This document shows, piece after piece, positions 9,005 through 50,760 of a stretch of DNA of 64,000 bases. The translations under genes and the position numbers were made by a program. How positions within the stretch are numbered: the first letter of the stretch is position 1; every line of letters starts with the position of its first letter. The notes below the pieces were generated by a model that saw only the letters and a list, made by a program, of their open reading frames with translations, searched no databases and was not told the origin of the DNA. Origin of the DNA: Coprococcus phoceensis. Lineage in GTDB: Bacteria; Bacillota; Clostridia; Lachnospirales; Lachnospiraceae. The stretch covers positions 2,703,421-2,767,420 of the forward strand of contig NZ_FNWC01000007.1 of the NCBI RefSeq assembly GCF_900104635.1, written 5' to 3'.

Positions 9005-9005
9005 C

Positions 9006-24545: not shown

Positions 24546-24601
24546 ACCATTGTTCTCCTTCCTGTGTGTAATAGTGTAAATATAAGATTTTAAGCAAACG
24601 A

Positions 24602-24642
24602 AAAGACGTCCATTCCGATCACTCCGGAACGAACGCCTTTGC
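24602..24642 (-). promoter_or_regulatory. Leader hairpin of the split-gltB operon
   Basis: On the minus strand, GCAAAGGCGT pairs with ACGTCTTT through an outer stem, with an inner GTTCCG/CGGAAT stem and a GAGTGAT loop, followed by TTTTC. It starts about 12 bases after the -10. The outer-stem sequence is shared with the leaders of glnN, purC and (as a variant) amtB. Confidence 0.72.
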
Positions 24643-24654
24643 TCATTTATCTGT

Positions 24655-24683
24655 GTTATACTCTTTTTCCACTTGCTTGTCAA
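24655..24683 (-). promoter_or_regulatory. Promoter of the split-gltB operon
   Basis: TTGACA (24683-24678) and TATAAC (24660-24655) on the minus strand, 17 bp apart. It lies back to back with the glnN promoter; only 22 bp separate the two -35 boxes. Confidence 0.85.
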
Positions 24684-24705
24684 GCTGATTTTTTTCAAAA
24701 AAAGA

Positions 24706-24734
24706 TTGACAAATGCTTTTTTCAGGTGTATAGT
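24706..24734 (+). promoter_or_regulatory. Promoter of glnN-asnB
   Basis: TTGACA (24706-24711), 17 bp, TATAGT (24729-24734). It is divergent from the gltB promoter and followed at once by two terminator-like hairpins. Confidence 0.87.
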
Positions 24735-24748
24735 GCAATTCGTAAAGA

Positions 24749-24872
24749 CAAAGGCGTTTTTGAGTGAAAGAACTCAGAGACGCTTTTTTGTTTTTCAATC
24801 TTAATTAAATCCTACTTGTTTGATAAGGGCAAAGGCGTCTTAAATGTGAAAAACATTGAGGACGCCTTTCCT
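24749..24872 (+). promoter_or_regulatory. Two tandem leader hairpins of glnN
   Basis: Hairpin 1 (24750-24789) has the outer stem AAAGGCGTTT/AGACGCTTT and an inner GAGT/ACTC stem, ending in TTTTTT. Hairpin 2 (24831-24869) has the outer stem AAAGGCGTC/GACGCCTTT and an inner AATGT/ACATT stem, with a weaker T tract. Both begin with CAAAGGCGT. They look like attenuator terminators. The inner loops (GAAAGA, GAAAA) do not clearly match the A1/G4 hexaloop known for ANTAR-protein targets. Confidence 0.72.
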
Positions 24873-24927
24873 GTTATTTAATGTAAACTCATCAATGATT
24901 TAAGGTAACACAAATGGAGGACATGCT

Positions 24928-27024
24928 ATGAAAACGGTAACAGATTATTTTGGAGATTTGGTATTTGATGACAGAGTTATGAAAGCAACCCTTTCCGCAA
25001 AAGTTTATTCTTCTCTCAGAAAGACTATAGACGAAGGATGTGAACTGGATATCAGCGTTGCCAATGCAGTCGCAACCGCTATGAAGGATTGGGCGATTTC
25101 CAAGGGAGCAACCCATTTTACGCACTGGTTCCAGCCACTGACCGGGATTACAGCAGAAAAGCATGACAGCTTTATCACCCCGTCACCTGACGGCGGTGTC
25201 ATTATGGAATTTTCCGGCAAGGAACTGATTAAAGGAGAACCAGACGCCTCTTCCTTTCCAAACGGCGGGCTTCGCGCCACCTTCGAGGCAAGAGGTTACA
25301 CTGCCTGGGATCCTACTTCCTATGCGTTCATCAAAGACAACAGCCTTTGTATCCCTACAGCATTCTGTTCTTATGGCGGATACGCTCTGGATAAGAAGAC
25401 GCCGCTTTTGCGTTCCATGGAAGCACTCAGCAGACAGGCTATTCGTATCCTTCGCCTGTTCGGCAACGATTCCGCCAAATGTGTCCGCTCATCCGTCGGT
25501 CCGGAGCAGGAATATTTCCTGATTGACAAAGAAATGTACGACCAACGTCCGGATCTTTGTTTTACTGGTCGTACCTTATTCGGAGCGAAGCCTCCGAAAG
25601 GGCAGGAGATGGACGATCACTACTTCGGCGTGATCAAACCTCGTGTAGCCGCATATATGGAAGAACTCAACGAAGAACTTTGGAAGCTTGGGATTCTCGC
25701 AAAAACAGAACATAATGAAGTTGCACCTGCACAGCATGAACTAGCGCCAATCTACACAACTACTAATATTGCGACCGATCATAACCAGCTCACAATGGAA
25801 ATCATGCAAAAAATTGCTGCAAAGCATGGTCTTGTATGTCTTCTTCACGAAAAGCCATTTGCCGGTGTGAACGGAAGCGGAAAACACAACAACTGGTCGA
25901 TTTCAACAGACAAAGGACAAAACCTTCTTTCTCCTGGTGAGACACCTTATGAAAATGCTCAATTTCTTTTGTTCCTTTGTGCCGTTATAAAAGCAGTAGA
26001 TGACTATCAGGATCTGCTTCGTATCTCCGTTGCGACTGCCGGCAATGACCATAGACTTGGTGCTAACGAAGCTCCTCCGGCTGTTGTTTCTATTTTTCTT
26101 GGAGATGAGTTAAATGCCGTATTAGAGGCAATTGAAAATGACACCCCTTATCAGGGCGCCAAAAAAACAAAAATGAAACTCGGCGTCGATGTGCTTCCGA
26201 AATTTAACCGGGACAACACCGACCGTAACCGGACTTCTCCGTTTGCTTTCACCGGCAATAAATTCGAGTTTCGTATGCTCGGTTCTTCGAACAGTATCGC
26301 ATGCGCAAATATTATGCTCAACAGTGCGGTGGCAGAATCACTGAAAATCTATGCAGACAGACTGGAGCAGGCACAGGACTTTGAGACAGCGCTTCATGAA
26401 ATGATCCGCAAGACCATCAAAGACCACAAACACATTATTTTCAACGGCAACGGGTATGACGACAACTGGATTAAAGAGGCTACTGAAAAGCGCGGTCTTA
26501 TCAACTACCGCACAACTGTGGACTGTATGCCTCATCTGCTCGATGAAAAGAATGTCAAAATGCTGACCGGACAAGGTGTATTCTCCATCGCAGAGCTTCA
26601 GTCACGCTGTGACATCATGCTTGATAACTATTGTAAATCTGTAATTATAGAAGCCAACACAATGGTCACGATGGCAAAAACGCAGATTGCTCCGGCTGTG
26701 GAGAGCTACGCCGCGCACGTTGCAGATGCGGCTATATCCAAAAAGGCATTGGATGCAAATCTTGCTTGCAGTTATGAGACCAATCTTGTCAGAACACTTT
26801 CTACCCTGACTGACACGATTGCCGCAAAAGTAAATTTACTAAACGAGGCACTGCGCTCTCTTGAAACGGCAGAAGATATTTTTGCAGAATCTTTCCTTAT
26901 CCGTGACCATGTACTTGGCTTGATGAATGAACTGAGAGCTGCCTGTGATGAGGCAGAAACACTGACTGCAAAAAGCTACTGGCCTTTCCCTACCTATGCA
27001 GATTTACTGTTCGGTGTAAAATAA
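24928..27024 (+). CDS. glnN: Glutamine synthetase type III (GlnN)
   Basis: The 698-residue enzyme makes glutamine from glutamate, ammonia and ATP. Its length and sequence are those of the type III family (type I is about 450 residues). It begins [19 protein letters not shown] and contains [10 protein letters not shown] (metal-binding glutamates), [14 protein letters not shown], the ATP-site loop [13 protein letters not shown] and [32 protein letters not shown] precedes the ATG. It forms an operon with asnB (19-base gap) and is divergent from the glutamate-synthase genes, so glutamine formation and use are controlled from one region. Confidence 0.97.
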
Positions 27025-27043
27025 ATCAGACGGAGGTTACTTT

Positions 27044-28624
27044 ATGTGTTCTATTATGGGTTATTGTGGCAGTAATGCCGATCTTAATATTTTTAAAAAA
27101 GGTTTTGACCGGACGATTACAAGAGGTCCGGACGAAAGCCGTATCATAGATACCGGAAATGGTTTTCTTGGATTTCACAGACTTGCCATTATGGGGCTTT
27201 CCCCTTCCGGCATGCAGCCGTTTGAGCTGGATGGAAGCTTTGTTGTATGCAACGGAGAAATATATGGGTTTGAACAATTCAAAGAACAGCTTTCCGAAAA
27301 ATATACTTTTCAAAGCGAGTCCGACTGTGAGATATTACTTCCCTTGTACCGCGAGTACAAAACGGATATGTTTGCAATGTTAGATGCCGAATTTGCCTGT
27401 ATCATATACGACGGCGAAACCGGCGAATATATTGCAGCAAGAGATCCTGTCGGCATCAGACCGCTTTATTATGGTTTTGATGAAGCCGGGACACTCCTGC
27501 TCGCAAGTGAACCAAAAAACCTTGTCGGGCTCGCCGAAGCGATCATGCCGTTTCCACCCGGACATTATTATAAGAACGGGGAATTTATCTGCTACTGTGA
27601 CATTGCCTCATCGGATACCATCTGTCACGATGATTTGGAAACCGTATACGGACAGATTCATGACAAACTCGTTGCCGGTGTTAAAAAGCGGCTTGTCGCA
27701 GATGCCAAGGTCGGATTTCTTCTTTCCGGCGGGCTCGATTCGTCACTTGTATGCGCCATCGCAGCAAGGGAAAGCGCTTCGCCAATCAAGACCTTCGCTA
27801 TCGGCATGAGCGAAGATGCCATCGACTTAAAATATGCGAAACAAGTCGCCGACTATATTGGCAGTGACCACACAGAAATTTATATGACACCAGACGATGT
27901 ACTTTCTTCTTTAGAGACAGTGATTCGGATACTCGGAACATTTGATATCACGACAATTCGCGCCAGCATGGGCATGTACCTCCTGTGCAAGGCAATTCAC
28001 GAGCAGACCGATATCCGTGTTCTGCTCACAGGAGAAATATCAGATGAATTATTCGGATACAAATATACGGACTTTGCCCCATCAGCGGAAGCTTTTCAGG
28101 CAGAATCCCAAAAACGTATCCGTGAACTTCATATGTATGACGTACTGCGCGCCGATCGCTGCATTTCCGTAAACTCACTGGAAGCGCGAGTTCCTTTCGG
28201 AGATCTTGATTTTGTGAAATATGTCATGGCATTGGATCCATCGATCAAACAAAATGTCTACGGAAAAGGAAAATACCTGCTTCGCAAGGCATTTGAAACA
28301 GGCGACTATCTCCCAGAAGAAATTCTGTGGCGTGAAAAAGCAGCATTCTCAGATGCTGTAGGTCATTCCATGGTCGACTATCTGAAAGAGTACGCCGAAC
28401 AGCATTATACAGAAGAAGCATTTGAAGCCGGATGCAAAAAATATACGCACGCTCGCCCTTTCACCAAAGAATCTCTTCTCTATCGTGAAATTTTCGAAAA
28501 ATACTACCCGGGTCAGGGCGAAATGATCTCCGGCTTTTGGATGCCAAACCGCGACTGGGAAGGCTGTGATGTGAATGACCCTTCTGCCAGAGTTCTTGCA
28601 AACTACGGGGACAGCGGAAAATAA
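27044..28624 (+). CDS. asnB: Asparagine synthase, glutamine-hydrolysing (AsnB)
   Basis: The 526-residue protein has the class II glutaminase domain with the nucleophile Cys2 (MCSIMGYCG), GPDESRI, HRLAIMGLSPSGMQPF and CNGEIYGF, then the ATP-pyrophosphatase domain with FLLSGGLDSSLVCAIA (P-loop) near residue 228 and GEISDELFGYKYTDF. It makes asparagine from aspartate with ammonia from glutamine. The gene follows glnN by 19 bases with GGAGG before the ATG. A broader amidotransferase role cannot be excluded. Confidence 0.94.
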   Translation: MCSIMGYCGSNADLNIFKKGFDRTITRGPDESRIIDTGNGFLGFHRLAIMGLSPSGMQPFELDGSFVVCNGEIYGFEQFKEQLSEKYTFQSESDCEILLPLYREYKTDMFAMLDAEFACIIYDGETGEYIAARDPVGIRPLYYGFDEAGTLLLASEPKNLVGLAEAIMPFPPGHYYKNGEFICYCDIASSDTICHDDLETVYGQIHDKLVAGVKKRLVADAKVGFLLSGGLDSSLVCAIAARESASPIKTFAIGMSEDAIDLKYAKQVADYIGSDHTEIYMTPDDVLSSLETVIRILGTFDITTIRASMGMYLLCKAIHEQTDIRVLLTGEISDELFGYKYTDFAPSAEAFQAESQKRIRELHMYDVLRADRCISVNSLEARVPFGDLDFVKYVMALDPSIKQNVYGKGKYLLRKAFETGDYLPEEILWREKAAFSDAVGHSMVDYLKEYAEQHYTEEAFEAGCKKYTHARPFTKESLLYREIFEKYYPGQGEMISGFWMPNRDWEGCDVNDPSARVLANYGDSGK

Positions 28625-28657
28625 GCCAAAATAATTATAAAACCTTTCAAAGACTAG

Positions 28658-28686
28658 TTGACAATAATCCGAAAAAAGAGTATCAT
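28658..28686 (+). promoter_or_regulatory. Promoter of purC-pyrG-purF-carAB
   Basis: TTGACA (28658-28663), 17 bp, TATCAT (28681-28686), located just after the asnB stop. Same architecture as the glnN and gltB promoters. Confidence 0.83.
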
Positions 28687-28695
28687 ATCGGCTGG

Positions 28696-28747
28696 AAAGG
28701 CAATGGCGTCTTTAATGTTTACACATTAAGGCATCATTGCCTTTTTT
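28696..28747 (+). promoter_or_regulatory. Leader hairpin of the purC operon
   Basis: An outer stem AAAGGCAATG/CATTGCCTTT encloses GGCGTC and an inner perfect TTAATGT/ACATTAA stem with a TTAC loop, followed by TTTTTT. It starts about 10 bases after the -10 and lies 37 bases before purC. It shares the GGCAAxGGCGTCTT block with hairpin 2 of glnN. Probable attenuator. Confidence 0.74.
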
Positions 28748-28783
28748 ATTGCAAACAGTAATGAAAATGGAGGTACATAAGTC

Positions 28784-32569
<3,786 letters not shown>

Positions 32570-32573
<4 letters not shown>

Positions 32574-33682
32574 TCATGAAATATAACAGAAAACTAATTT
32601 TAGAGGACGGACAGGAATATTATGGATATGCCTTTGGCGACACTGCCGACAGCGTGTGTGAAATTGTCTTCAACACCTCAATGGTCGGCTATCAGGAAAT
32701 CCTGTCTGATCCGTCCTACACCGGACAGGCTGTCGTAATGACTTATCCACTGATAGGAAATTACGGAATGGCAGAAGATGATTATGAGACCATCACACCG
32801 ACCATCGGTGCTCTCATTGTAAGAGAATATAACGACGTTCCCTCTAACTTTCGAAGTGAATCAACACTTGGGAAAGTTATGAGCACCTATAAGATCCCCG
32901 GTATTTACGGTATCGACACCCGCAGACTGACCCGCTCTATACGCGATCACGGCTCGCAAAAGGTTCTGTTGACAGACGTAAAAACACCTGTTGAGAAAGG
33001 GCTGAACATCTTAGCCGCTACAGCGCTTGCACATGATTCAGTCGCTCGCGTAAGCTGTCAGCAAACGCTGGTCTATCCAGCAGATACCGAAAAGTTCCAT
33101 ATTGTTGCAATCGACTGTGGTATCAAAATGAATATCATTCGTTCTCTCAATGCACGTGGCTGCAAAGTGACATGCGTTCCGTGGAACACGCCTGCAGAAG
33201 TGATTGAAACGCTCTCTCCTGACGGCATCTTTATCTCTAATGGACCCGGGGATCCAACCGACGTACCACAGACGATTACAGCTATAAAAAAATTAATCGG
33301 TAAATATCCGATTTTCGGAATCTGCCTCGGACATCAGATTATTTCACTTGCCTATGGTGCCAAAACTTATAAATTAAAGTTTGGACATCGCGGCGGGAAT
33401 CATCCGGTAAAAAATTTAAAAACGAATAAAATTGAGATTACATCGCAGAATCACTCCTATGCGGTTGATGCAGACAGTCTCTTAGAGACACCGCTTTCTG
33501 TGACACACATCAATCTGCTCGACCAGACAGTAGAAGGTGTAGTATGCGAAAGAGATCGTGTATTCAGCGTTCAATATCATCCGGAAAGTGCTCCTGGTCC
33601 ACAGGACAGCACCTATTTGTTTGATCAATTTATCACACTTATCAAGGAGGGATGCCAACATGCCGAAAAGAACAGATCTTAA
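32570..33682 (+). CDS. carA: Carbamoyl-phosphate synthase small subunit (CarA)
   Basis: The 370-residue glutaminase subunit supplies ammonia to CarB. It has the N-terminal domain ([33 protein letters not shown]) and a class I amidotransferase domain with [21 protein letters not shown] (nucleophile cysteine) and [14 protein letters not shown]. Two ATGs lie at the start (32570 and 32576); the first overlaps the purF stop. It overlaps carB by 23 bases. The product serves both pyrimidine and arginine synthesis, linking to argF in this window. Confidence 0.97.
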
Positions 33683-36600: not shown

Positions 36601-36833
36601 TCCTGCGCAAGCCATCTGAGGGCAGCGAAGAAGTACTTGATTCTATTCGCGCCGGATATGTCAGCTACGTCATCTGTACACGTGCCATCCTTTCCGGTAT
36701 CCACTATGAAGATGGTGTTGCAATTCGTCGATGTGCCTCCGAAAACAATATTACCATGCTCACCTCACTTGACACCGTGCGCGTACTGCTCGATGTCCTG
36801 GAGGAAGTAACTATCGGTATCTCGACAATTTAG
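33660..36833 (+). CDS. carB: Carbamoyl-phosphate synthase large subunit (CarB)
   Basis: The 1057-residue protein is the duplicated ATP-grasp synthetase. Both halves are visible: [19 protein letters not shown] at residue 10 and [19 protein letters not shown] near 560, [12 protein letters not shown] and [14 protein letters not shown], and a C-terminal MGS-like allosteric domain (last 130 residues, [13 protein letters not shown]). I use the ATG at 33660, preceded by AAGGAGGGA; a much longer frame runs upstream inside carA and is not used. A 23-base overlap couples it to carA. Confidence 0.97.
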
Positions 36834-36841
36834 AATAAATA

Positions 36842-36890: not shown

Positions 36891-36905
36891 TTAAAAATAC
36901 TCCCT

Positions 36906-38762: not shown

Positions 38763-38767
38763 ATTCC

Positions 38768-39418: not shown

Positions 39419-39427
39419 ATTCTGCTC

Positions 39428-40807: not shown

Positions 40808-40823
40808 AGCGTTCCCTTCTTAA

Positions 40824-41513
40824 TTATACTTTAAATCGGTATCCAACGCCCCATATAGTCTCGATATACTGTGGTTTCGACGTATCAAATTCTATCTTCT
40901 CACGGATCTTTTTAATGTGAACTGTAACTGTTGCAATGTCTCCAATCGATTCCATATCCCATATCTCGCTGAATAATTCATCTTTTGTATATACATGATT
41001 TGGGTGTGAAGCCAAAAATGTAAGCAGATCAAATTCTTTTGTCGTAAAAGGCTTCTCCTCACCATTCACCCACACACGTCTCGCTGTCGTATCAATCTTC
41101 AGTCCACGAATCTCGATCACCTTGTTTTCTTCTGCTGCGCTTCCAATCAAACGGTCATAACGTGCCATATGCGCCTTCACACGGGCAACTAACTCACTAG
41201 GGCTAAACGGCTTTGTGATATAATCGTCTGCTCCAAGACCAAGTCCTCGGATTTTGTCAATGTCATCCTTTTTTGCCGAAACCATAATAATCGGCGTATT
41301 TTTTTCATCTCGAACCTGTCTGCAGATCTCAAATCCATCTACTCCCGGAAGCATCAAATCCAAAATAAACAGATCATAATCATTTTCCAATGCTTTCTTT
41401 AAACCTGTCTCTCCATCATTTGCAACCTCAACTTCAAAACCACTCAACTCTAAATAATCTTTTTCTAAGTCAGCAATTGCCTCCTCATCTTCTACAATCA
41501 ATATTTTACTCAT
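40824..41513 (-). CDS. OmpR/PhoB-family response regulator
   Basis: The 229-residue regulator has a receiver domain (residues 1-115) with the phosphoacceptor aspartate in DLFILDLMLPGVDG and the conserved lysine in DDYITKPFSPSELVARV, followed by a winged-helix DNA-binding domain (about 130-229: TKEFDLLTFLASHPNHVYTKDELF). It is coupled by an 8-base overlap to the histidine kinase gene upstream. Being followed by ktrBA, it probably regulates that operon among others. Target operators are not visible. Confidence 0.95.
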   Translation of the reverse strand: MSKILIVEDEEAIADLEKDYLELSGFEVEVANDGETGLKKALENDYDLFILDLMLPGVDGFEICRQVRDEKNTPIIMVSAKKDDIDKIRGLGLGADDYITKPFSPSELVARVKAHMARYDRLIGSAAEENKVIEIRGLKIDTTARRVWVNGEEKPFTTKEFDLLTFLASHPNHVYTKDELFSEIWDMESIGDIATVTVHIKKIREKIEFDTSKPQYIETIWGVGYRFKV

Positions 41514-42996
41514 TTACTGGTACCTCCTGATATTTTCTAATAACAAAGTACATTACGGTTCCGGTGCCTTCCTTGCTCGTAGCCCAGATTTTTCCGCCAT
41601 GCTCTTCCACAATTTTTTTCACAATCGAAAGACCGATTCCACTTCCTCCCTTAGAGGAATTTCTAGATGCATCTGTCCGATAAAACCGGTCAAAAATATG
41701 CGGCAGCTCTTTTGCCCCAATTCCTTTTCCGTTATCTTCCAGTTCAATCTGAACGAAATCTCCCACATCTTTCACGCGAAGATTGATCTTTCCATGTTCT
41801 TTATCCATATATTTTTCTGAATTGGACACAATATTATTAATGACACGCTTTAACTGCTCCACATCCGCAATGATCTTTACATCACTTTCCACATAATTAA
41901 AATAGCCAAACTCAATGCCCCTTGCCTCCAGTTCCATGGCAAGATCTTCTGCACAATCATCAAAATAATCATTTACAAGAACTGTGCTGAAATTGTAAGG
42001 TATACGGTTAGAGTCAATCTTCGAGTACAACGTCAGCTCATTGATCAAAAGATCCATCTCATTTGCCTTGTTATAAATCGTCTTAATATAGCGATCCATC
42101 TTCTCCGGCGTATCTGCCACACCGTCCATGATTCCTTCTACATAACCTTTAATCGCTGTGATAGGAGTCTTCAAATCATGGGAAATGTTGCTGATAAGTT
42201 CCTTACTTTTCCTGTCATACTCTACTTTTTCTTCCGCCGTATCTTTCAGACGTTTTCTCATCTCTTCAAAATCACGGCAAAGTTGTCCAATCTCGTCATC
42301 TACCTCAATCTCCAGCTCAAAATCTAAATTTCCATCCTTGATATTTTGCGTGGCAATCTTCATTCTTCCAAGCGGTATCACAATTCCACGATAAATCCAA
42401 AGAATCAAAAACAATGCTGTGAACATCAAGATAAATACAACCGCAATCACCATGTCAGTTATAAGCTGTTTCACTTCAGGCACAGAATCACTCACATCCG
42501 TCACAATAAAAGCACTTCCCTGTGCCCCATCTTGATACTCAAAATCAATCTGCTTTACAAGTACCTGAAGGTCACCTCCAAGATAGACGCCGCTCTCCGA
42601 AGATGAATCATAGTCTCCATACGCCGGAAGCTCTTGTAAAAGCTCTGTCTCTGCCTCTGCTCCTATATATACCACTTTGTCATCTCGCCTTACAACCAAA
42701 TACGAGTTTTTCTTCGTCAGTTCTTCGTTGATTTTTTCCAAATATGTGATATCTGTCAATGTCTCCGGCGTTGTCTTTGCCGTTTTTACTAACTTGTGAA
42801 ATGTCGCTGACGTGACTTTATTTAACATATTGACCGGATTTGAAAAACTCTTATATGTCGTTCCTGTAATATTATAATTCTTCTCGATCATCGATATCTG
42901 ATACTGACTGAAACCAGTAATGACAGCAAGAGACAATCCCATCGGCAATACTATAATGATTAAAAATGCTATCACCAATCTTGTTTTTAACTTCAA
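41506..42996 (-). CDS. Membrane sensor histidine kinase (HAMP, HisKA, HATPase)
   Basis: With a TTG start at 42996 (AAAGGA upstream) the protein has 496 residues: a first membrane segment (about 5-28), an extracellular sensor region (about 30-180), a second membrane segment (about 190-215), a HAMP linker, the phosphoacceptor histidine in NISHDLKTPITAIKG, and the ATPase domain with NNIVSNSEKYM (N box) and DNGKGIGAKEL (G1 box). The open frame extends further upstream without a good start. It is paired with the response regulator by overlap. The signal is unknown. Confidence 0.93.
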   Translation of the reverse strand: MKLKTRLVIAFLIIIVLPMGLSLAVITGFSQYQISMIEKNYNITGTTYKSFSNPVNMLNKVTSATFHKLVKTAKTTPETLTDITYLEKINEELTKKNSYLVVRRDDKVVYIGAEAETELLQELPAYGDYDSSSESGVYLGGDLQVLVKQIDFEYQDGAQGSAFIVTDVSDSVPEVKQLITDMVIAVVFILMFTALFLILWIYRGIVIPLGRMKIATQNIKDGNLDFELEIEVDDEIGQLCRDFEEMRKRLKDTAEEKVEYDRKSKELISNISHDLKTPITAIKGYVEGIMDGVADTPEKMDRYIKTIYNKANEMDLLINELTLYSKIDSNRIPYNFSTVLVNDYFDDCAEDLAMELEARGIEFGYFNYVESDVKIIADVEQLKRVINNIVSNSEKYMDKEHGKINLRVKDVGDFVQIELEDNGKGIGAKELPHIFDRFYRTDASRNSSKGGSGIGLSIVKKIVEEHGGKIWATSKEGTGTVMYFVIRKYQEVPVNE

Positions 42997-43104
42997 TAAA
43001 CACACATCCTTTTCTACAATTAGTAGTATTATACCATGCGACAAAATGTAATACACCAAAGAACCACTAAATATTTATAAATTTTTTGTAAATTTATACA
43101 AAAA

Positions 43105-43145
43105 AATCAGATGCACACTCATTTTAAGTATTTGCATCTGACTTT
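43105..43145 (-). terminator. Terminator of metK
   Basis: On the minus strand GTCAGATGCA pairs with TGCATCTGAT and is followed by TTTTTTT, about 22 bases after the metK stop. Confidence 0.87.
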
Positions 43146-43166
43146 TTCTTATTTTTTGAAATCTTT

Positions 43167-44354
43167 CTACAAGTAAGCTTTCAAGGTTTCTACTTTATCT
43201 AATTTTTCCCAAGGTAAATCCAGATCATGACGTCCAAAATGTCCGTAAGCTGCTGTCTGCTTGTAAATCGGGCGACGAAGGTCTAACATCTTGATAATGC
43301 CAGCCGGTCTTAAATCAAAGTTCTCTCTTACGATATCTACTAATTTTTCCTCTGAAAGTTTTCCTGTTCCAAATGTATCAATCATAATTGATGTCGGCTG
43401 AGCCACACCGATTGCGTATGACAGCTGAATTTCACACTTGTCTGCCAAACCTGCTGCAACGATATTCTTTGCTACATAACGTGCCGCATATGCCGCAGAA
43501 CGGTCAACTTTTGTGCAGTCTTTTCCAGAGAATGCTCCGCCACCGTGACGAGCCATTCCGCCGTATGTGTCAACAATAATCTTACGACCTGTGACACCGC
43601 TGTCTCCATTTGGTCCACCGATTACAAAACGTCCTGTTGGATTGATAAAGAATTTTGTATTCTCATCTACCATTTCCGCAGGTAAAATCTCGTCAAAAAT
43701 ATATTTTTTCACGTCTGCATGAATCTGCTCCTGTGTCACTTCCGGATCATGCTGTGTCGATAACACAACTGCATCCAGTCTGGCAGGAACACCATTTTCA
43801 TCATATTCCACTGTTACCTGTGTCTTTCCATCCGGGCGAAGATAAGGAAGTGTTCCATCTTTACGCACTTTTGTAAGTCTCAGTGCAAGCTTGTGTGCCA
43901 ATGCGATCGGATATGGCATAAATTCTTCTGTCTCATTGGATGCATATCCAAACATCATTCCTTGATCTCCGGCACCGATTGCCTCAATTTCTTCATCTGA
44001 CATCTTATTTTCTTTTGCTTCCAAAGCCTTGTCTACACCAAGTGCAATATCAGCTGACTGCTCGTCAATTGCAGTTACCACACCACATGTATGCGCATCA
44101 AATCCGTATTTTGCTCTGTTGTATCCAATCTCATCGATTGTCTCTCTTACTAATTTTTGAATATCCACATATGCATTTGTTGTGATCTCTCCCATAACCA
44201 ACACAAGACCTGTTGTAATTGCTGTCTCACAAGCTACACGGCTCATCGGATCCTGCTCTAACAGTGCGTCTAAGACCGCATCTGAAATCTGGTCACAAAT
44301 CTTATCCGGATGTCCTTCTGTTACTGATTCTGATGTAAATAATAATCTTTCCAT
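43167..44354 (-). CDS. metK: S-adenosylmethionine synthetase (MetK)
   Basis: The 395-residue enzyme makes S-adenosylmethionine from methionine and ATP. It shows the N-terminal [32 protein letters not shown] (signature 1), and [26 protein letters not shown] signature 2 near residue 270 in the expected places. A monocistronic gene under a SAM-I riboswitch, so S-adenosylmethionine represses its own synthesis. A strong ribosome binding site (AAGGAAAG) precedes the start. Confidence 0.98.
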
Positions 44355-44420
44355 TCGTTCTTTCCTTTCTTTATTTCTTTCTTTCTCTTTAAGGATTGTC
44401 CTGCTTCTTCCCTAATTAAC

Positions 44421-44455
44421 TAAAAACAGCCCGACAAAATCGGACTGTTTTATAT
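44421..44455 (-). terminator. Riboswitch terminator in the metK leader
   Basis: On the minus strand AAAACAGTCCGA and TCGGGCTGTTTTT form a hairpin with an A/T loop followed by a T run, just after the SAM-I aptamer and about 65 bases before metK. Confidence 0.88.
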
Positions 44456-44470
44456 TCTCATAAACCAATC

Positions 44471-44567
44471 CTCTTATTGTTCGATTACTCGCTCAGGTTG
44501 GCACCTTCCGTTCCCGGGGTTGCCGTGGCTTCATAGATCCTTTTACCTCCACCACTCTGAATAAGAG
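44471..44567 (-). promoter_or_regulatory. SAM-I riboswitch (S box)
   Basis: The minus strand shows CTCTTATTCAGAG, GGTGGAGG, ATGAAGCCACGGCAACC, GGTGCCAACCTGAGC and the closing AATAAGAG in the canonical S-box order. It precedes metK and a terminator hairpin. A consensus promoter TTGACG-N17-TATTAT lies upstream (44629-44601). Confidence 0.96.
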
Positions 44568-44600
44568 AAAGTTCGCATTATTTAATTTGTTCCGTTGATG

Positions 44601-44629
44601 ATAATAACACTTCTAAATACTGCCGTCAA
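44601..44629 (-). promoter_or_regulatory. Promoter of metK
   Basis: TTGACG (44629-44624) and TATTAT (44606-44601) on the minus strand, 17 bp apart, about 35 bases upstream of the S-box aptamer. Confidence 0.8.
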
Positions 44630-44723
44630 GCACTTTTTCTATTTACCTATTTGTTTGATAAAGTTTATTACTAATACCAAAGAAAAAAAGCCTCAGAAAT
44701 ATGAAATTCCTAGACTTTTTGAC

Positions 44724-44794
44724 AGGCGCCAACCAGATTTGAACTGGTGATAGAGGTGTTGCAGACCTTTGCCTTACCACTTGGCTATGGCGCC
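44724..44794 (-). tRNA. tRNA-Cys (anticodon GCA), copy 1
   Basis: The 71-nt gene folds as a standard cloverleaf with acceptor GGCGCCA, T-loop GGTTCAAATC-like arm and anticodon GCA in GTCTGCAAC. The discriminator base is U, as usual for tRNA-Cys. CCA is not encoded. A promoter TTGACT-N17-TATAAT lies about 25-55 bases upstream on the minus strand. Identical in sequence to the copy at 52416. Confidence 0.96.
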
Positions 44795-44943
44795 ATATAT
44801 TTTCTTTCTAATATATTGTATTCTAATAACAAAAAAATTATAACAAAATATTTATTCTCAGTCAATATTTTTTATTTATCAGAAAGTAAATTTCTGTTCA
44901 TTAGATTACAAAATTAGTACTATACAGCACCAAATACCCTCAA

Positions 44944-44995
44944 AATGACCATATAAAGAGATTCGAATCTTTCTCTCTACATGGTCATTTCTGGC
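44944..44995 (-). terminator. Terminator of the DASS-fumarase operon
   Basis: On the minus strand AAATGACCAT and ATGGTCATTTT form a stem with a further AGAGA.../...TCTCT inner stem, 24-75 bases downstream of the fumarase beta stop. Confidence 0.8.
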
Positions 44996-45018
44996 AGTAT
45001 TTTGGTTTTATTTTGATG

Positions 45019-45645
45019 TTACTTGATAAAGCTTACATGCTTACAAATTTCTTTAATTGCTTTCTCTTTTCTTTCATTGAAAACAACTTTATTTTCTTCA
45101 AACAAATTTCGTCCATCTGTATCAATGGATACAATCAGAGGACCAAATTCTTTTACACGGCAGTGCCATAACGTTTCCGGCATTCCCAGATCTCTCCATT
45201 GTGCATCTATAATTTTTTCCACCTCTGAAGCAGCTACCACTGCATTTCCGGCAGGGAACACACAATGGATCGCCTTATAGTTTTTACATGCATACTCCGT
45301 GTTTGTACCCATGCCTCCTTTTCCGATAATCACTTTCACACTGGTCTGTTTCACAAATTCTTTTTCGAATTTCTCCATACGCATGCTGGTTGTCGGACCA
45401 ACAGACACCATTTCGAACTTGTCATCCGCAAGAGGACGGATAATCGGTCCTGCATGAAAGATTGCAGCGTCCTTTACATTTACAGGAAGTTCTCTTCCTC
45501 CCTCAACAAGCCGTCTGTGTGCCACATCACGACAGGTTGTCATACTTCCGTTCAGATAAATAATATCTCCGATATGGATATCTGCCAGATCCTCAGCAGA
45601 TATCGGCGTTGTTAAAATTTTCTTTCCATCTTTGATTTCCAACAT
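45019..45645 (-). CDS. Fumarate hydratase class I, beta subunit (C-terminal domain)
   Basis: The 208-residue protein matches the C-terminal half of class I (4Fe-4S) fumarases: [45 protein letters not shown] and the C-terminal ...[10 protein letters not shown]. With the alpha subunit it interconverts fumarate and malate. Fumarase genes of this split form are common in clostridia; a tartrate dehydratase is the alternative. One base overlaps the alpha gene. Downstream is a terminator. Confidence 0.92.
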
Positions 45646-46544
45646 TATAAAGTCACCCCCGAATGTGTTGTGATCGTGTAATTGAGATCTTTGTCAAAAA
45701 TAATGTGCCCACGTCTGTGAGACCAGCAGCCAACATTCACGGCGACACCGATTGTAGATGGATGTCTTGCTGTGTTTTCAATATGTACACCCATTACGGA
45801 ATACTTGCCGCCCATTCCCTGAGGTCCGAGTCCAATTGCATTGATTCCGTCTTCAAGCAACTTTTCCATCTCTGCCGCACGCTCATTCTCATTATGACTT
45901 CCCAGCGGTCTCATCAATGCCTTTTTAGAAAGCAGTGCTGCTGTCTCAACAGATGTTGCCACACCGACACCGACCAAAAGCGGAGGACATGCATTCAGAC
46001 CATAAGAAGTCATGACATCCATTACAAATTTCGTAACTCCTTCGTAGCCCTCTCCCGGCATCAGCACCATGGCTTTCCCCGGAAGTGTGCATCCTCCGCC
46101 TGCCATGTACGTATAAATCTCGCACCGATCACTGTTTGGTATAATATCCCAGAATACTGTCGGTGTTCCTTTGCCAACATTTTTGCCTGTATTGTACTCG
46201 TCAAATGTTTCCACGCTGTTATGACGAAGAGGTGCTTCCACTGTCGATTTTATAACAGCTTCTTTTAAAAGTGTCTCTAATTCCCCGATCAGCGGGAAAT
46301 TTGTTCCACATTTTACCCAAAACTGCAATACACCCGTATCCTGACAGCTTGGTCTGTTCAATTCTTTTGCCAGTACCTGATTTTTCTTCATTGTCTCGTA
46401 AATGACTTTTGAAAGCGGACTGTCCTCTTTTTCTGCCAGTTCATCCAGCTTTGCAATAATATCATCCGGCAGCACTTTTGCGATATATGACACAAAATTT
46501 GCCATATAATCCGTAAGCTGCTCTACTTGTTCTTTCTTACTCAT
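45645..46544 (-). CDS. Fumarate hydratase class I, alpha subunit (N-terminal domain)
   Basis: The 299-residue subunit carries the iron-sulphur-binding cysteines of the class I family in [25 protein letters not shown] and [10 protein letters not shown]. Start at ATG 46544, after GGAGGCAGAAAC. It stands between a DASS-type dicarboxylate/anion transporter gene (69 bases upstream) and the beta subunit. The three genes with a divergent LysR gene look like a C4-dicarboxylate (fumarate/malate or tartrate) utilisation unit. Confidence 0.93.
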
Positions 46545-46613
46545 GTTTCTGCCTCCTCTGATTTTTTGCATCTATATCAGATGCTGTTTATTTTCACAAT
46601 TATAATCATCCTT

Positions 46614-47777
46614 TTATGGAAAGAATGGAAATGCAATCGTGAGGATAATCATACTCACAACCGTTGCTATGATAATCAATGGAAATCCTGCTTTTACAAA
46701 ATCCATAAAGCGGTAACCTCCGACTCCCACAACCATAGTATTTGCCGGCATTCCGATCGGAGTTGCATAAGCACAGGAACCTCCGATTACACATGCCATC
46801 AATACTGCTCTCGGATCTGCTTCGATTCTCTGTGCAATCGACAGACAGATCGGAACCATCAATGCTGTCGTCGCTGTGTTTGACATAAAATTTGTCATCA
46901 CACAACACAGAAGAAATACGACCAGCGTCAGAATATATGGAGACGGATCGCTTCCAAGTGCTCCAATTACTTTTTCTGCGATCATCTCTCCCGCTCCGGT
47001 CTTTTCAAGTGCCGCTGCCAGAGATAAAGTTCCTCCAAACAAGAAAATTGTTTTCAAGTCAATAGATTTCAATGCATCTTTTTCTGAAATCACACCGGTC
47101 AATATCAAAAGCAAAGCACCGATTCCACCTGAAACACAAAGACTGATTCCTATCTTTTCTTCAAAGATCATAGCCAGTAAAGTCAGTATCAGAATGATCA
47201 ATGACATCCACTGCTTCCATTTAGGTACCTGATCAAAATCTCTTTTTGTATCGAACGCCTCCTCTTCTTTCGGATCACATTCCGGAAGTAATTTATATCC
47301 TATGGTTGCATAAAATAAAATTCCTGCAATCAGAATCGGCATCAGTAATTTTGATCTTTTGTATCCTGATTTTGCTGCAATTCCTATAACTACCGGAATT
47401 AATACCGCTGCAGTACCTGTATTTGAAAGTACTCCACTCATCAAACCTACAATTACCATAATTGCTACAATCAGCATACGTTCTGTTTTTGCAAATCTGG
47501 TTACAATTCCCCCAATTTTATTTGCCATTCCTGTTTCAAATAATGCTCCTCCTACAATGAACATCGCTACGAACAGTATCACATTACTGTCAGTAAATCC
47601 TGCAAATGCGGTCTGCACATCCAGTACATCTGTAATGGTCAGTCCGATACAGACGATCATTGATGTTACCCCAAGCGGTATTTTTTCAATAACAAACATA
47701 ATCACCGCAAACAAGAGAAACAAAAGAGTTATTGTTGACGGACTCCTTTGTTTTCCTCCAATCCTTTTTTTATTCAC
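46614..47777 (-). CDS. DASS/SLC13-type anion transporter with an internal deletion
   Basis: The 387-residue membrane protein has the first SNT motif (LSNTGTAAVLIP), the second SNT motif (MSNTATTALMVP) and the second TP-type motif (YATPIGMPANTM). After SKLLMPI, where the family normally has a glycine-rich GGxxTLIGTPPN segment and the next helix, the protein jumps directly to LIAGILFYATIGYKLLP. About 35-45 residues of the usual approximately 430-470 appear missing, without a frame break. Known members take up succinate, citrate, fumarate or sulfate with sodium. With the fumarase genes next to it, a C4 acid is likely, but function may be lost. Confidence 0.8.
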   Translation of the reverse strand: MNKKRIGGKQRSPSTITLLFLLFAVIMFVIEKIPLGVTSMIVCIGLTITDVLDVQTAFAGFTDSNVILFVAMFIVGGALFETGMANKIGGIVTRFAKTERMLIVAIMVIVGLMSGVLSNTGTAAVLIPVVIGIAAKSGYKRSKLLMPILIAGILFYATIGYKLLPECDPKEEEAFDTKRDFDQVPKWKQWMSLIILILTLLAMIFEEKIGISLCVSGGIGALLLILTGVISEKDALKSIDLKTIFLFGGTLSLAAALEKTGAGEMIAEKVIGALGSDPSPYILTLVVFLLCCVMTNFMSNTATTALMVPICLSIAQRIEADPRAVLMACVIGGSCAYATPIGMPANTMVVGVGGYRFMDFVKAGFPLIIIATVVSMIILTIAFPFFP

Positions 47778-47858
47778 ATCACAGCGCTGTTTGCTATAGC
47801 TTTATTATAGAGGTCGTATAGATGCTTGTACATTTACTTAAAATGATACCTCCATTAA

Positions 47859-47910
47859 AAAAATTATGATATGTTGTATATTTGAGCATTTCTCACAAAA
47901 ATTATGATAT
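47859..47910. promoter_or_regulatory. Direct repeats in the transporter-LysR intergenic region
   Basis: AAAAATTATGATAT occurs at 47859-47872 and 47897-47910, 38 bp apart. The second copy overlaps an extended -10 (TGATATAAT) likely used by the lysR gene. The placement fits a LysR-type operator, but the repeats are A/T-rich and direct rather than inverted. Confidence 0.45.
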
Positions 47911-48013
47911 AATCAAAATAATCACGGATTAAAACCAGAAGAATTTTAGACATAATTACTATAATAAAATTTTTAATATTTTAGAAAATTAAGAAGAAAT
48001 GGGGTCACTACCA

Positions 48014-48895
48014 ATGAAAATCATTCAATTAGAATACTTTTCTGCCGTTTGTCGTTATCACAGTATTACACAAGCTGCACAAAAGCTTTATGTCACACAG
48101 CCTGCAATCTCAAACGCAATTCGAGAACTGGAAAAGGAATTTTCTATCAGTTTGTTTAGCCGTACAAAAAATCATATGGTTTTGACAAAAGAAGGGGAAG
48201 AATTTTACCAAAAAGCAAGTGTACTTCTTAACAATATTCATGAGACGACCTCAGAGCTTTATGACCTTGGAAAGCAGATTACCCCCATCCGAATCGGCAT
48301 TCCTCCTCTTTTGAGTACAGTCTTTTTCCCTGATATGCTGACTGCTTTTTATAAAAAATATCCAAATATCCCCGTTGAGCTTTTTGAATACGGCTCTGTA
48401 CGTGCCGCCAATCTGGTTTTAGATGATGTATTGGATCTGGCGCTCGTCAATCTGAATTTTTATGAGACTAATAAATTAAATTCTTGTCAGCTTCTTTCTG
48501 ACAAGCTAATGTTCTGTATCTCCAAGAGTCATCCTCTCGCGAAAGAAAAAAGTATATCAATTGAAATGTTAAAAGATGAGCCTCTAATCATGTACAATAC
48601 CGATTCCGTTCAAAACCATACGTTGCTTTCACTTTTTGATACAATCAAAGTAAAGCCTCATGTAATTTTAAATGCCAGCCAACTCTATACAATTCAGGCA
48701 TTTGTCCGTGAGAATCTAGGAGGAGCTATTCTCTACTCTTCGCTCTTCAAAAATATGAACGACGTCAAGGGAATACCAATCGCTCCTACAATCTCACAGG
48801 AAATCGGTCTCGTATGGCAAAAGGGCAAATATCTAAACAGCCGCACTGAACAATTTATTGCTTTTACAAAAGAATTTATGGAAAGTCAAAAATAA
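48014..48895 (+). CDS. LysR-family transcription regulator
   Basis: The 293-residue regulator has the winged helix (residues 1-60: IIQLEYFSAVCRYHSITQAA, QPAISNAIRELEKEF) and a C-terminal periplasmic-binding-like effector domain (about 90-290). Start at 48014 gives the typical MKIIQLEYF; an in-frame ATG five codons upstream is possible. It is divergent from the DASS transporter-fumarase operon, the classic arrangement of a LysR gene with its target. The effector is probably the transported acid. Confidence 0.92.
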   Translation: MKIIQLEYFSAVCRYHSITQAAQKLYVTQPAISNAIRELEKEFSISLFSRTKNHMVLTKEGEEFYQKASVLLNNIHETTSELYDLGKQITPIRIGIPPLLSTVFFPDMLTAFYKKYPNIPVELFEYGSVRAANLVLDDVLDLALVNLNFYETNKLNSCQLLSDKLMFCISKSHPLAKEKSISIEMLKDEPLIMYNTDSVQNHTLLSLFDTIKVKPHVILNASQLYTIQAFVRENLGGAILYSSLFKNMNDVKGIPIAPTISQEIGLVWQKGKYLNSRTEQFIAFTKEFMESQK

Positions 48896-48958
48896 ACCTT
48901 CTGCTTCTAAAGTCAATTGTTACAATGAAACTGTCCACCTGCAAAACAAATTACAAAA

Positions 48959-49315
48959 CTAATTTTCTGACTGAAGTGCGTCAAATCCAGTCTCTCTCGT
49001 TCTGATCTTCAGCGCACTTCGAATTTCATAGCTGAATATTTTTCCATCCCCCACTTCTCCCGTATACGCCGCTTTCTGAATTGCCTCAATAGTCTTTTTC
49101 TCCCATTCCTCAGAAGATACTACAATCTCAAATTTGATTTTGGGAAGCATCATAACATCTACCTCCATTCCACGCACAACGCTTTTATATCCTCGCTGAG
49201 AACCGCAGCCCATAACCTGCGACACAGTAATTCCGTTTACCTGAATAGCGTTCAATGCTTCTTTTACATCCTCAAGCTTTTCTTCCCGAACGATTGCTTC
49301 TATTTTAATCAACAT
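48959..49315 (-). CDS. glnK: P-II nitrogen regulator (GlnK type)
   Basis: The 118-residue protein begins MLIKIEAIVREEKLEDVKEAL, with the P-II pattern VSQVMGCGSQRGYKS and the C-terminal TGEVGDGKIFS. It should bind ATP/ADP and 2-oxoglutarate and plug the ammonium channel. In the T-loop the tyrosine that is uridylylated in enterobacterial P-II (EYxV) is replaced: RGMEVDVMMLPKIKFEI has valine there. Control is therefore by ligands alone or by another modification. Sixteen bases downstream of amtB. Confidence 0.95.
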   Translation of the reverse strand: MLIKIEAIVREEKLEDVKEALNAIQVNGITVSQVMGCGSQRGYKSVVRGMEVDVMMLPKIKFEIVVSSEEWEKKTIEAIQKAAYTGEVGDGKIFSYEIRSALKIRTRETGFDALQSEN

Positions 49316-49331
49316 AATCTGCTCTCCTTCC

Positions 49332-50570
49332 TTAATCCAATCCATTGAAAGACGGATATGCATTTTCACCATGCTGGGAAATATCTAATCCTACTTTTTC
49401 CTCTTTTTCGCTTACTCGAAGCGGTGTAAAAATTTTTACAATTGCCGCACAGATTAATGTACCCAAAACTGCAATCACAATTGTAATCAAAATTCCTATT
49501 ATCTGTGCACGGAACAGACGAAAATCACCGAATACTAAGCCATCCCACTTGGCCACGCTGTTAATAGAACTTTTTGCAAAAATTCCGGTTGCAAGTCCGC
49601 CCCAAATTCCTCCTATTCCATGACACCCAAAGGCATCAAGCGCATCATCTATTTTTACCCGCTCTTTAATAAAGCCAACTCCAAAATAACAGATTGGACT
49701 AACGAGTGCTCCAATAATAAATGAAGACCAAATCGGTACAAACCCGGCTCCCGGTGTAATTGCAACAAGCCCAACCACAAGACCGGTAGAAGCTCCAACC
49801 AGTGTTGGTTTTCCTTCTTTCAGAACATCAATCAACATCCAGGACAGTAATGCGGTCGCTGCAGATACCGCAGATGTCATAAATGCATGTGCAGCCAGCC
49901 CATTTGCTCCGAGTGCACTTCCTGCATTGAATCCAAACCATCCAAACCATAAAATCGATGCCCCAAGGACAACAAACGGAATATTGTGAATCCGGTAAGT
50001 CGTATGTTCATATCCTCTTCGTTTTCCAATTAAAACAGCAAGAACCAGTGCACTGATTCCGGAACTTATATGGACCACGTCTCCGCCGGCAAAATCTACT
50101 GAACCGATTTCAGCCAGCAAACCGCCCTCACCCCACACCATATGTGCCAGCGGATAGTAAACAATAACCGACCAAAATATTACAAAGAAAAACAACGCCT
50201 TAAATTTCATTCTCCCTACAAGTGCACCCGTAATCAATGCCGGCGTAATCATCGCAAACATCATCTGAAATGCCGCAAACACCAAATGCGGAATTTTTTC
50301 AGAATATGGGCCCGTTTCCATACCAATATCTGAAAAAGCAAACCATCTAAAATCGCCGATTATACCTGCATGATTTCCACCAAATGCGAGTGAATACCCA
50401 AATAAAACCCACATGACAACCGAAATCCCCATAATAGCCACACATGCCATCATCGTGTTCCCTACATTTTTACGTCTGACTAACCCGCCATAAAAAAATG
50501 CTAAACCTGGTGTCATAAAGAAAACCAATGCTGTCGAAATCATAACAAATGCTGTGTCTCCTGTATTCAT
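49332..50570 (-). CDS. amtB: Ammonium transporter (AmtB)
   Basis: The 412-residue protein is the Amt/Mep/Rh ammonium channel with eleven predicted helices. It shows MTPGLAFFYGGLVRRKN, DFAGGDVVHISSGISALVLA, the second half signature DDALDAFGCHGIGG with the pore histidine and the C-terminal tail that binds P-II. It is co-transcribed with glnK downstream. Its 5' leader has a promoter, a terminator-like hairpin related to those of the glutamine cluster and a stem that pairs with the ribosome binding site. Confidence 0.96.
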   Translation of the reverse strand: MNTGDTAFVMISTALVFFMTPGLAFFYGGLVRRKNVGNTMMACVAIMGISVVMWVLFGYSLAFGGNHAGIIGDFRWFAFSDIGMETGPYSEKIPHLVFAAFQMMFAMITPALITGALVGRMKFKALFFFVIFWSVIVYYPLAHMVWGEGGLLAEIGSVDFAGGDVVHISSGISALVLAVLIGKRRGYEHTTYRIHNIPFVVLGASILWFGWFGFNAGSALGANGLAAHAFMTSAVSAATALLSWMLIDVLKEGKPTLVGASTGLVVGLVAITPGAGFVPIWSSFIIGALVSPICYFGVGFIKERVKIDDALDAFGCHGIGGIWGGLATGIFAKSSINSVAKWDGLVFGDFRLFRAQIIGILITIVIAVLGTLICAAIVKIFTPLRVSEKEEKVGLDISQHGENAYPSFNGLD

Positions 50571-50578
50571 AACCACTC

Positions 50579-50624
50579 CTCCTTCAAAATCCTTTCCATG
50601 CTCCTGGCATCTTCTTTGAAGGAG
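50579..50624 (-). promoter_or_regulatory. Stem sequestering the amtB ribosome binding site
   Basis: On the minus strand CTCCTTCAAA (50624-50615) is a perfect complement of TTTGAAGGAG (50588-50579), which contains part of the amtB Shine-Dalgarno sequence. A 10-bp stem with a 26-base loop would hide it, so translation may be controlled. Confidence 0.68.
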
Positions 50625-50631
50625 ACATTCT

Positions 50632-50666
50632 CTCCGACAAAGCAGGTGTGCCTCTTTGCACGGAGT
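50632..50666 (-). promoter_or_regulatory. Second leader hairpin of amtB
   Basis: CTCCG and CGGAG with GCAAAG/CTTTGT form a hairpin with an AGGCACACCTG loop. It lies between the terminator-like hairpin and the ribosome-binding-site stem. Possible regulatory RNA module. Confidence 0.55.
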
Positions 50667-50687
50667 TTCTGTTACATCTATACAATA

Positions 50688-50721
50688 AAAAAAGTGTCTA
50701 GAAATCTTCTAAACACCTTTG
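50688..50721 (-). promoter_or_regulatory. Terminator-like leader hairpin of amtB-glnK
   Basis: On the minus strand AAAGGTGTTTAGAA pairs with TTCTAGACACTTTT, followed by T-rich sequence. It begins about 12 bases after the -10 with CAAAGGTGTTT, close to CAAAGGCGTTT of the glnN leader. Confidence 0.72.
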
Positions 50722-50731
50722 TTGGAATAAA

Positions 50732-50760
50732 GTATAACATACTTTAAATTAACAGACAAT
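50732..50760 (-). promoter_or_regulatory. Promoter of amtB-glnK
   Basis: TTGTCT (50760-50755) and TATACT (50737-50732) on the minus strand, exactly 17 bp apart, with TG before the -10. Confidence 0.8.

Follow-up and report, generated by a model that had tools for sequence, protein, structure and literature searches.

The 64,000-nucleotide stretch of the Coprococcus phoceensis genome analysed here (contig NZ_FNWC01000007.1, positions 2,703,421 to 2,767,420; hereafter the window) carries nitrogen-related operons that share a leader element, which is very probably a target of antitermination by an ANTAR-domain protein. The gltB and glnN(-asnB) operons are divergent, a gene run comprises purC-pyrG-purF-carA-carB, and amtB lies 22 kb past purC (Table 1). 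The gene names given by an initial annotation of the same DNA hold for the split GltB, GlnN, AsnB, PurC, PyrG, PurF, CarA and Amt, and CarB can be added; judged from its ribosome-binding site, the glutamine amidotransferase (GATase) part of gltB truly starts near 24550.

The initial annotation had described promoters with 17-bp spacers before gltB, glnN, purC and amtB, each soon followed by a terminator-like hairpin. All four promoters were confirmed by sequence, the five hairpins were found at their places with their letters correct, and the distance past each -10 was measured as 10-15 nt; glnN hairpin 2 lies 81 nt further downstream, without a promoter of its own. The T tract reported after most hairpins is present at all but glnN hairpin 2 (CCTTTCCTGTTATTT). 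The 5' arm of the terminator reads CAAAGGYGTY at gltB, glnN (two in tandem) and amtB, and CAATGGCGTC at purC. The proposal of one shared leader element that has the build of regulated termination and is tied to ammonium uptake, to glutamine and glutamate synthesis and to enzymes using glutamine is upheld.

The recurrent word also takes part in a competing fold, in which it forms the hexaloop C[AAAGGC]G on a stem of 3-7 bp and excludes the terminator. According to the main text of PMC3369931, A at loop position 1 and G at position 4 (A1/G4) are the letters that matter for ANTAR proteins, and an A1/G4 hexaloop was found in six elements of five leaders of this genome (gltB, glnN twice, purC, amtB and glnA). 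The hexaloop hairpin occupies the 5' arm of the terminator, so the two folds are mutually exclusive. In the six elements, predicted energies of 0 to -4.8 kcal/mol (hexaloop hairpins) stand against -13.8 to -23.2 kcal/mol (terminators); with the terminators so much more stable, the hexaloop fold would need the help of a protein. The initial annotation had set ANTAR aside for want of an A1/G4 loop, having read the apical loops of the terminators. These loops were searched as well and rejected as candidates, being 3-8 nt long and not conserved; what had been overlooked was the hexaloop of the alternative fold, along with the sixth copy at glnA and an additional hexaloop of the amtB leader.

With at most one mismatch allowed, the window contains 28 copies of CAAAGGYGTY where 14.5 are expected, and 0 of 100 shuffles reach 28; recurrence of the bare word is weak evidence, and its position behind promoters is stronger. 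The word GAGTGA, common to gltB, glnN1 and glnA, was weighed as a possible second site but discarded, since it is missing from the other leaders. Rfam gave nothing above the gathering score at the leaders (whole window, and again 24560-24930). In the amtB leader (window 50661-50540, minus strand), the second hexaloop is followed by a predicted strong hairpin that pairs CTCCTTCAAAG with the ribosome-binding region GAAGGAGGAG, and a second, translational control is possible there.

Table 1 Genes, promoters and leader hairpins of the window
Feature	Position	Strand	Remarks
gltB, split	21946..24698	-	FMN part 21946-23451; GATase part 23448-24698 as listed
gltB terminator hairpin	24602..24640	-	-23.2 kcal/mol; excludes gltB hexaloop hairpin
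gltB hexaloop hairpin	24628..24647, loop 24640-24635	-	AATGAGC[AAAGGC]GTTCGTT; -4.8 kcal/mol
gltB promoter	24655..24683	-	TTGACA-17-TATAAC
glnN promoter	24706..24734	+	TTGACA-17-TATAGT
glnN hexaloop hairpin 1	24743..24762	+	TAAAGAC[AAAGGC]GTTTTTG; -2.5 kcal/mol
glnN terminator 1	hairpin 24750-24787, with T tract to 24797	+	-21.3 kcal/mol
glnN hexaloop hairpin 2	24826..24841	+	AGGGC[AAAGGC]GTCTT; from sequence and fold
glnN terminator-like hairpin 2	24831..24869	+	-20.6 kcal/mol; poor T tract
glnN	24928..27024	+	long glutamine synthetase; then asnB 27044-28624
purC promoter	28658..28686	+	TTGACA-17-TATCAT
purC hexaloop hairpin	28696..28713	+	AAAGGC[AATGGC]GTCTTT; purC-pyrG-purF-carA-carB downstream
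purC terminator	hairpin 28698-28744, with T tract to 28749	+	from sequence and fold
amtB	49332..50576	-	
Second A1/G4 hexaloop, amtB leader	50648..50661	-	GTGC[AAAGAG]GCAC; no terminator seen with it
amtB terminator	hairpin 50720-50686, with T tract to 50680	-	-13.8 kcal/mol
amtB hexaloop hairpin	50712..50723	-	AAC[AAAGGT]GTT; weakest, 3 bp; unstable alone in fold
amtB promoter	50731..50759	-	TTGTCT-17-TATACT

One ANTAR gene directly downstream of glnA

The 3.6-Mb genome encodes one ANTAR domain (PF03861; 54.8 bits against a curated cut-off of 27.3), in a gene directly downstream of glnA. The glnA leader carries the sixth copy of the element: promoter TTGACA-17-TATAAT, then GAAAC[AAGGGC]GTTTT, then a terminator. 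Among 54 ANTAR loci fetched from relatives, 49 by row count (43 by a stricter script flag) show a glnA match ahead of the ANTAR domain, and two of the five loci without one lie at contig edges.

In a sequence search of PDB, the ANTAR protein matched EutV best (E 4.6e-7), followed by Rv1626 (1s8n, named as in PMC8934654) and AmiR. Residues were aligned to EutV, taking into account that the numbering of the chain and that of the paper differ by two residues, together with 44 relatives kept after a length filter. The phospho-acceptor Asp54 of EutV aligns with Gly53, where the relatives have G (34), S (4), N (3) or T (1), two not being listed, and the receiver accordingly does not qualify as phospho-accepting. 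The obligatory Met172 of EutV aligns with Met163 and is Met in 44 of 44. The sequence fits a pseudo-receiver ANTAR protein that would be controlled by a partner, as AmiR is, and gene order makes GlnA possibly that partner.

The hexaloop stem covaries and marks leaders of glutamine genes

A first covariance model (R1), built from four window hairpins, gave matches in 40 of 61 genomes (own genome included, E<=0.1), yet many of these were ordinary terminators, among them the extra own-genome matches L009 and L010, and R1 alone was rejected as evidence. A second model (R2) was built from 24 terminators beginning at loop base A1, so that the 5' strand of the hexaloop stem lay outside the model; its seeds had been picked partly for having that stem. 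R2 was run on 120 genomes of the family Lachnospiraceae, and 121 matches were examined, drawn from among the matches listed. Left out were opposite-strand duplicates, repeated copies in G135, site C156:4410 of G138, the R1-held sites L026, L027, L034 and L036 (stems 4-5), and own-genome sites except glnN2 and one terminator; six seeds (L074, L075, L076, L079, L080, L084) were among the 121. Reference genes were assigned by tblastn with GlnN, GltB, AmtB, PyrG, PurF, CarA and AsnB of the window plus the GlnA of this genome.

A hexaloop stem of at least 3 bp was present in all 56 examined matches before reference genes and in 21 of the 65 others. With the six seeds removed, 50 of 50 reference-gene matches keep the stem; Fisher's test gave 4e-17 on 55/55 against 21/66, before one row was reassigned. 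L082, which precedes an ammonium transporter, has a stem of 4 bp, L099 has none, and six weaker own-genome matches (L109-L113, L115) have stems of 0-2. Raw R2 counts (79 of 120 genomes) were not used as support, since 44 of the 121 examined matches lack the stem. The search of relatives with a covariance model, suggested by the initial annotation, came out in its favour once the hexaloop stem separated ordinary terminators; its refuting condition, that the model would hit random terminators, came partly true with these 44, none of which precedes a reference glutamine or ammonium gene. Among 55 gene-selected matches the loop letters were A1 in 54 and A2, G4 and G5 in 55 each, letters that are partly selected because the model was trained on such loops.

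Covariation was measured on 47 distinct gene-selected rows over five pairs, against 500 shuffles that ignore relatedness, and for a stem whose 3' strand is also part of the terminator arm. Paired cells (93.2% vs 77.7% in shuffles), two-sided changes (51 cells vs 18.2), further pair types (13 vs 9.4) and the covariation score (0.635 vs 0.325) were each reached in 0 of 500 shuffles. The closing C-G is invariant, 15 of the 47 rows cannot form the outermost pair, and in slid registers 37-54% of cells pair. The hexaloop stem, of at least 3 pairs, is kept by compensatory change.

Several further arrangements were observed. In G066 (L201) an element lies directly upstream of dapF; dapF follows glnA-ANTAR in the window genome, so this element may have been left behind when the operon was rearranged. 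IS200-like transposase genes (Y1_Tnp) lie between the promoter-hexaloop-terminator unit and glnN or purF at L014 640-1098 (G009) and L021 1722-2129 (G012). Tandem hexaloop-terminator units about 75 nt apart, like the glnN pair of the window, occur at L124 633 and 708 (G138) and at L031 (G008), before gdhA and an ammonium-transporter-like gene. An ABC-transporter leader (L172, G154) has two hexaloops, the first being AACGGA with its own hairpin (-17.9 kcal/mol) and a weak T tract. Elsewhere in the window, Rfam identified SAM, TPP and PreQ1 riboswitches at 44471-44567, 9780-9883 and 8965-9009 (-).

The element accompanies the ANTAR gene

An ANTAR domain is present in 108 of the 120 genomes, and all 12 ANTAR-less ones, a small group that may share ancestry, have glnN. 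A fixed detector (C[ANNGNN]G, stem of at least 4, overlapping terminator, T-rich tail) was applied to 350-nt glnN leaders. It found the element in 22 of 28 leaders from ANTAR-positive genomes and in 0 of 12 from ANTAR-less ones (shuffles 2/280 and 0/120), the 28 being best matches to the window GlnN and including some model seeds. They came from 30 glnN loci, of which L258 was omitted (gene cut at a contig end) and L229 counted as ANTAR-less. In a divergence-matched set of 20 ANTAR-positive genomes with single-copy glnN, picked by hand and omitting G034, where the element was already known, the detector found 12. Combined, 34 of 48 ANTAR-positive leaders carry the element vs 0 of 12 ANTAR-less ones (Fisher 7e-6).

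The examined R2 matches agree, with a stem in 77 of 116 from ANTAR-positive and 0 of 5 from ANTAR-less genomes, and all 54 genomes with a stem-positive match among the 121 have ANTAR. G003, of the same genus as the window, has no ANTAR match, no Amt match at E<=1e-20 and no element before glnN; at that threshold Amt is matched in only 1 of the 12 ANTAR-less genomes.

Most leaders carry one hexaloop next to the promoter

Promoters were called when at least 9 of 12 letters agreed; the own gltB -10 (TATAAC) falls outside the -10 rule of the script, and that promoter was read by eye. In 34 of the 55 gene-selected leaders (35 by script, before L084 was moved by hand) a promoter, mostly with TTGACA, ends 10-19 nt before A1 (median 14). 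Random positions satisfy the same rule in 47 of 1820 cases and stemless matches in 3 of 32. No second A1/G4 hexaloop (stem of at least 4, G-C closed) was found within 110 nt upstream in those 34; downstream the script found two further hexaloops, of which one (L202) is credible. The stems, of 3-8 pairs, start about at the expected transcription start, which leaves no room for the upstream hairpin (P1) that precedes the terminator-overlapping hairpin (P2) in published dual-hairpin targets.

Two hexaloops were found in five of the 55 leaders (L074, L084, L090, L139, L212), the first at 13-18 nt past the -10 and the second a further 44-81 nt downstream. Reading all five as P1+P2 was rejected: in L074, L090, L139 and L212, a strong hairpin with a T-rich tail belongs to the first hexaloop too, so that each of these leaders consists of two complete single units in tandem, and L084 alone resembles a classic P1+P2. 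The published arrangement of P1, P2, a short linker and one terminator was not found as the rule here, and the tandem units favour the single-unit reading.

The promoter spacing was also sought directly. The pattern TTGACA-N16-18-TANNNT-N3-13-CAANGGNG has 161 matches in the 120 genomes vs 27 for the reversed control, 153 of them in ANTAR-positive genomes (control 24). Thirty matches were fetched; 16 of them lie before a reference gene, and 15 of these have a stem of at least 3.

The leaders might instead be ordinary dual-hexaloop targets with an unrecognised P1, either because transcription starts further upstream or because the P1 loop or its size is non-canonical. Two hexaloops are the rule for ANTAR targets in the main text of PMC3369931, the five leaders above do have a second A1/G4 hexaloop 44-81 nt upstream, and 16 of 55 leaders are without a clear adjacent promoter, three of these having a strong one 23-76 nt upstream. 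In those three, however, no P1 was seen, the 34 leaders with an adjacent promoter and no second hexaloop contrast with the low background of the promoter rule, and four of the five two-hexaloop leaders are tandem units. We regard an unrecognised P1 as unlikely, though deserving serious attention.

Interpretation and alternative explanations

We conclude, with a probability of about 0.88, that these leaders are targets of ANTAR antitermination of a glutamine regulon, exerted through the single ANTAR gene after glnA. Computation backs the exclusive folds, the covarying stem, the gene association, the dependence on the ANTAR gene and the promoter spacing; we infer the start sites, the actual binding, the direction of control and a signal that reaches ANTAR via a protein partner, possibly GlnA.

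In the proposed mechanism, RNA polymerase would start at or near the 5' strand of the short stem closing the hexaloop A1-A2-N3-G4-G5-Y6. As long as active ANTAR protein is lacking, the 5' arm of the much stronger terminator would be built from the hexaloop plus the 3' half of the stem, and transcription would halt about 45-55 nt in. When glutamine (nitrogen) is scarce, an ANTAR dimer would hold the hexaloop hairpin and block the terminator, and glnA-ANTAR, glnN-asnB, gltB, amtB and purC-pyrG-purF-carAB would be transcribed; since the ANTAR operon bears the element, ANTAR would feed back on itself. Most leaders would offer one hexaloop at the RNA 5' end with no upstream recruitment hairpin, the two-loop leaders being mostly tandem complete units, and the signal may reach the ANTAR protein, whose receiver is without the phosphorylated Asp, through its partner.

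A broader proposal, to which we give slightly better than even odds, is that the ANTAR system of this family has been reduced to one hexaloop in the first ~20 nt, serving both recruitment and antitermination, with the terminator within ~55 nt and with tandem stacking of units possible. A glutamine regulon that includes purine, pyrimidine and carbamoyl-phosphate synthesis would then be controlled by a pseudo-receiver ANTAR protein whose gene accompanies that of glutamine synthetase, the read-out perhaps being made by the synthetase itself.

A number of observations weigh against ANTAR control of these leaders. The 3-bp hexaloop stem of amtB is marginal, and that of L314, a glnA leader in the pattern set, has only 2 bp. 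The promoter-hexaloop pattern also matched 8 times in the 12 ANTAR-less genomes (control 3); among the ANTAR-less matches listed, 3 of 4 read CAANGGAG, which resembles a ribosome-binding site. The number of stem pairs in which both sides change does not rise above that in shuffles (4 vs 3.4; 241/500). Of the 77 stem-positive matches, 21 precede other genes by tblastn, several without a nitrogen link: they include GdhA (two tandem elements), a PII protein and a class-I glutamine amidotransferase, as well as four ABC-transporter ATPases, one family-3 binding protein and dapF, and L077, counted here as "other gene", is a glnN site read on the opposite strand. Eight of the 20 divergence-matched leaders fail the strict detector, six having G at loop position 1 (L273, L277, L280, L281, L284, L286) and two showing nothing convincing; allowing G1 and 3-bp stems adds 7 of the 20 (L275 not convincing) and 1 of the 12 ANTAR-less leaders. 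In the closer set 6 of 28 fail, four of them seemingly, by eye, second genes behind asnB. The 98%-complete assembly G137 has no ANTAR match, yet its glnN leader (L231) has a terminator with the hexaloop GACGGC (G1). On the protein side, Tyr164 of EutV, which stacks on G4, aligns with His155 (H36 F7 Y1 in the 44), and R142/K143/K147 align with unconserved positions. Finally, eutP needs both of its hexaloops, so that leaders with one might act differently or not at all.

That another RNA-binding protein, or a ligand-sensing RNA of the glutamine-riboswitch kind, reads the hexaloop hairpin is suggested by those contact residues that differ from EutV, ANTAR binding being only predicted. The element nevertheless tracks the ANTAR gene (the 34/48 vs 0/12 glnN leaders), the conserved part is a 6-nt loop and small for an aptamer, and no Rfam family reaches threshold in the gltB-glnN region, which makes such a reader improbable.

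Constitutive attenuators or 5' stabilising hairpins, copied around without a regulator, would account for five window copies of similar sequence within 26 kb and for terminator-only models that also match ordinary terminators. We consider this highly improbable, because the stem covaries, the element is present in 54 sampled genomes of the family, mostly before the same gene set, and genomes without ANTAR lack it before glnN. A DNA operator, in which the inverted repeat behind the promoter is a repressor site, is just as hard to credit: inverted repeats just past +1 hold a usual operator position, but here the repeat arms vary with pairing preserved, the T tract lies on the transcribed side, and a DNA palindrome would have no need of a second, overlapping fold such as the covarying hexaloop stem.

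Comparison with known ANTAR systems

Like the targets of EutV (eutP, Enterococcus), NasR (nasF) and AmiR (amiE), the leaders described here have an A1/G4 hexaloop on a short stem with an overlapping, exclusive terminator, precede nitrogen genes and come from genomes that encode an ANTAR protein. Unlike the published P1+P2 targets, they mostly have one hexaloop at the predicted RNA 5' end, and their two-loop forms are mostly tandem complete units with loops 44-81 nt apart. In eutP both hexaloops are required (passages of PMC3369931 and PMC8934654), and a linker lengthened by 20 nt abolished antitermination in vitro (PMC8934654). The EutV structure paper redefines the minimal ANTAR site as one hexaloop and leaves the extent of single-hexaloop use as a question, because the eut system needs both (PMC8934654). 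It was the only paper found with "single hexaloop" and ANTAR in the literature searched. An actinobacterial screen demanded, in its search description, two loops with a 2-25-nt linker (PMC8164766), and searches that demand two hairpins would miss single-hexaloop leaders.

Several nitrogen operons (glutamine, glutamate, ammonium) under one ANTAR system are also known from Desulfotomaculum and other ANTAR regulons in the main text of PMC3369931 (Ramesh 2012), where, unlike here, they were found with a dual-hairpin model. The word "Roseburia" is not in that main text by text search, with the supplement outside the search, and Lachnospiraceae hits there remain possible; "ANTAR domain" together with Lachnospiraceae was not found in the literature searched, most subscription journals lying outside it. 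As with NitR, cited in a passage of PMC4676874 as an antiterminator linked to ammonia assimilation in Clostridium acetobutylicum, an antiterminator protein is tied here to ammonia assimilation in Clostridia. That passage also proposes an ANTAR gene of C. thermocellum for a NitR-like role; unlike here, NitR is described with an antisense RNA, and the passage has no shared leader element. The receiver without a phosphorylated Asp is like that of AmiR as described in PMC8934654. AmiR is held by AmiC; no AmiC-like gene was noticed beside the ANTAR gene of this genome, where glnA is the constant neighbour.

The leaders amount to dozens of candidate antiterminators with a single hexaloop, set at a fixed spacing from strong promoters; tandem relatives, one dual-looking relative and sister genomes without the regulator are at hand for comparison. 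They would test whether ANTAR switches work with one RNA loop instead of two, and would suggest how nucleotide synthesis is coupled to glutamine in these bacteria. That ANTAR systems control nitrogen genes is already known from the examples above, as is the mechanism class; new, as far as our searches go, are the single form at the 5' terminus and a glutamine regulon that extends across the family.

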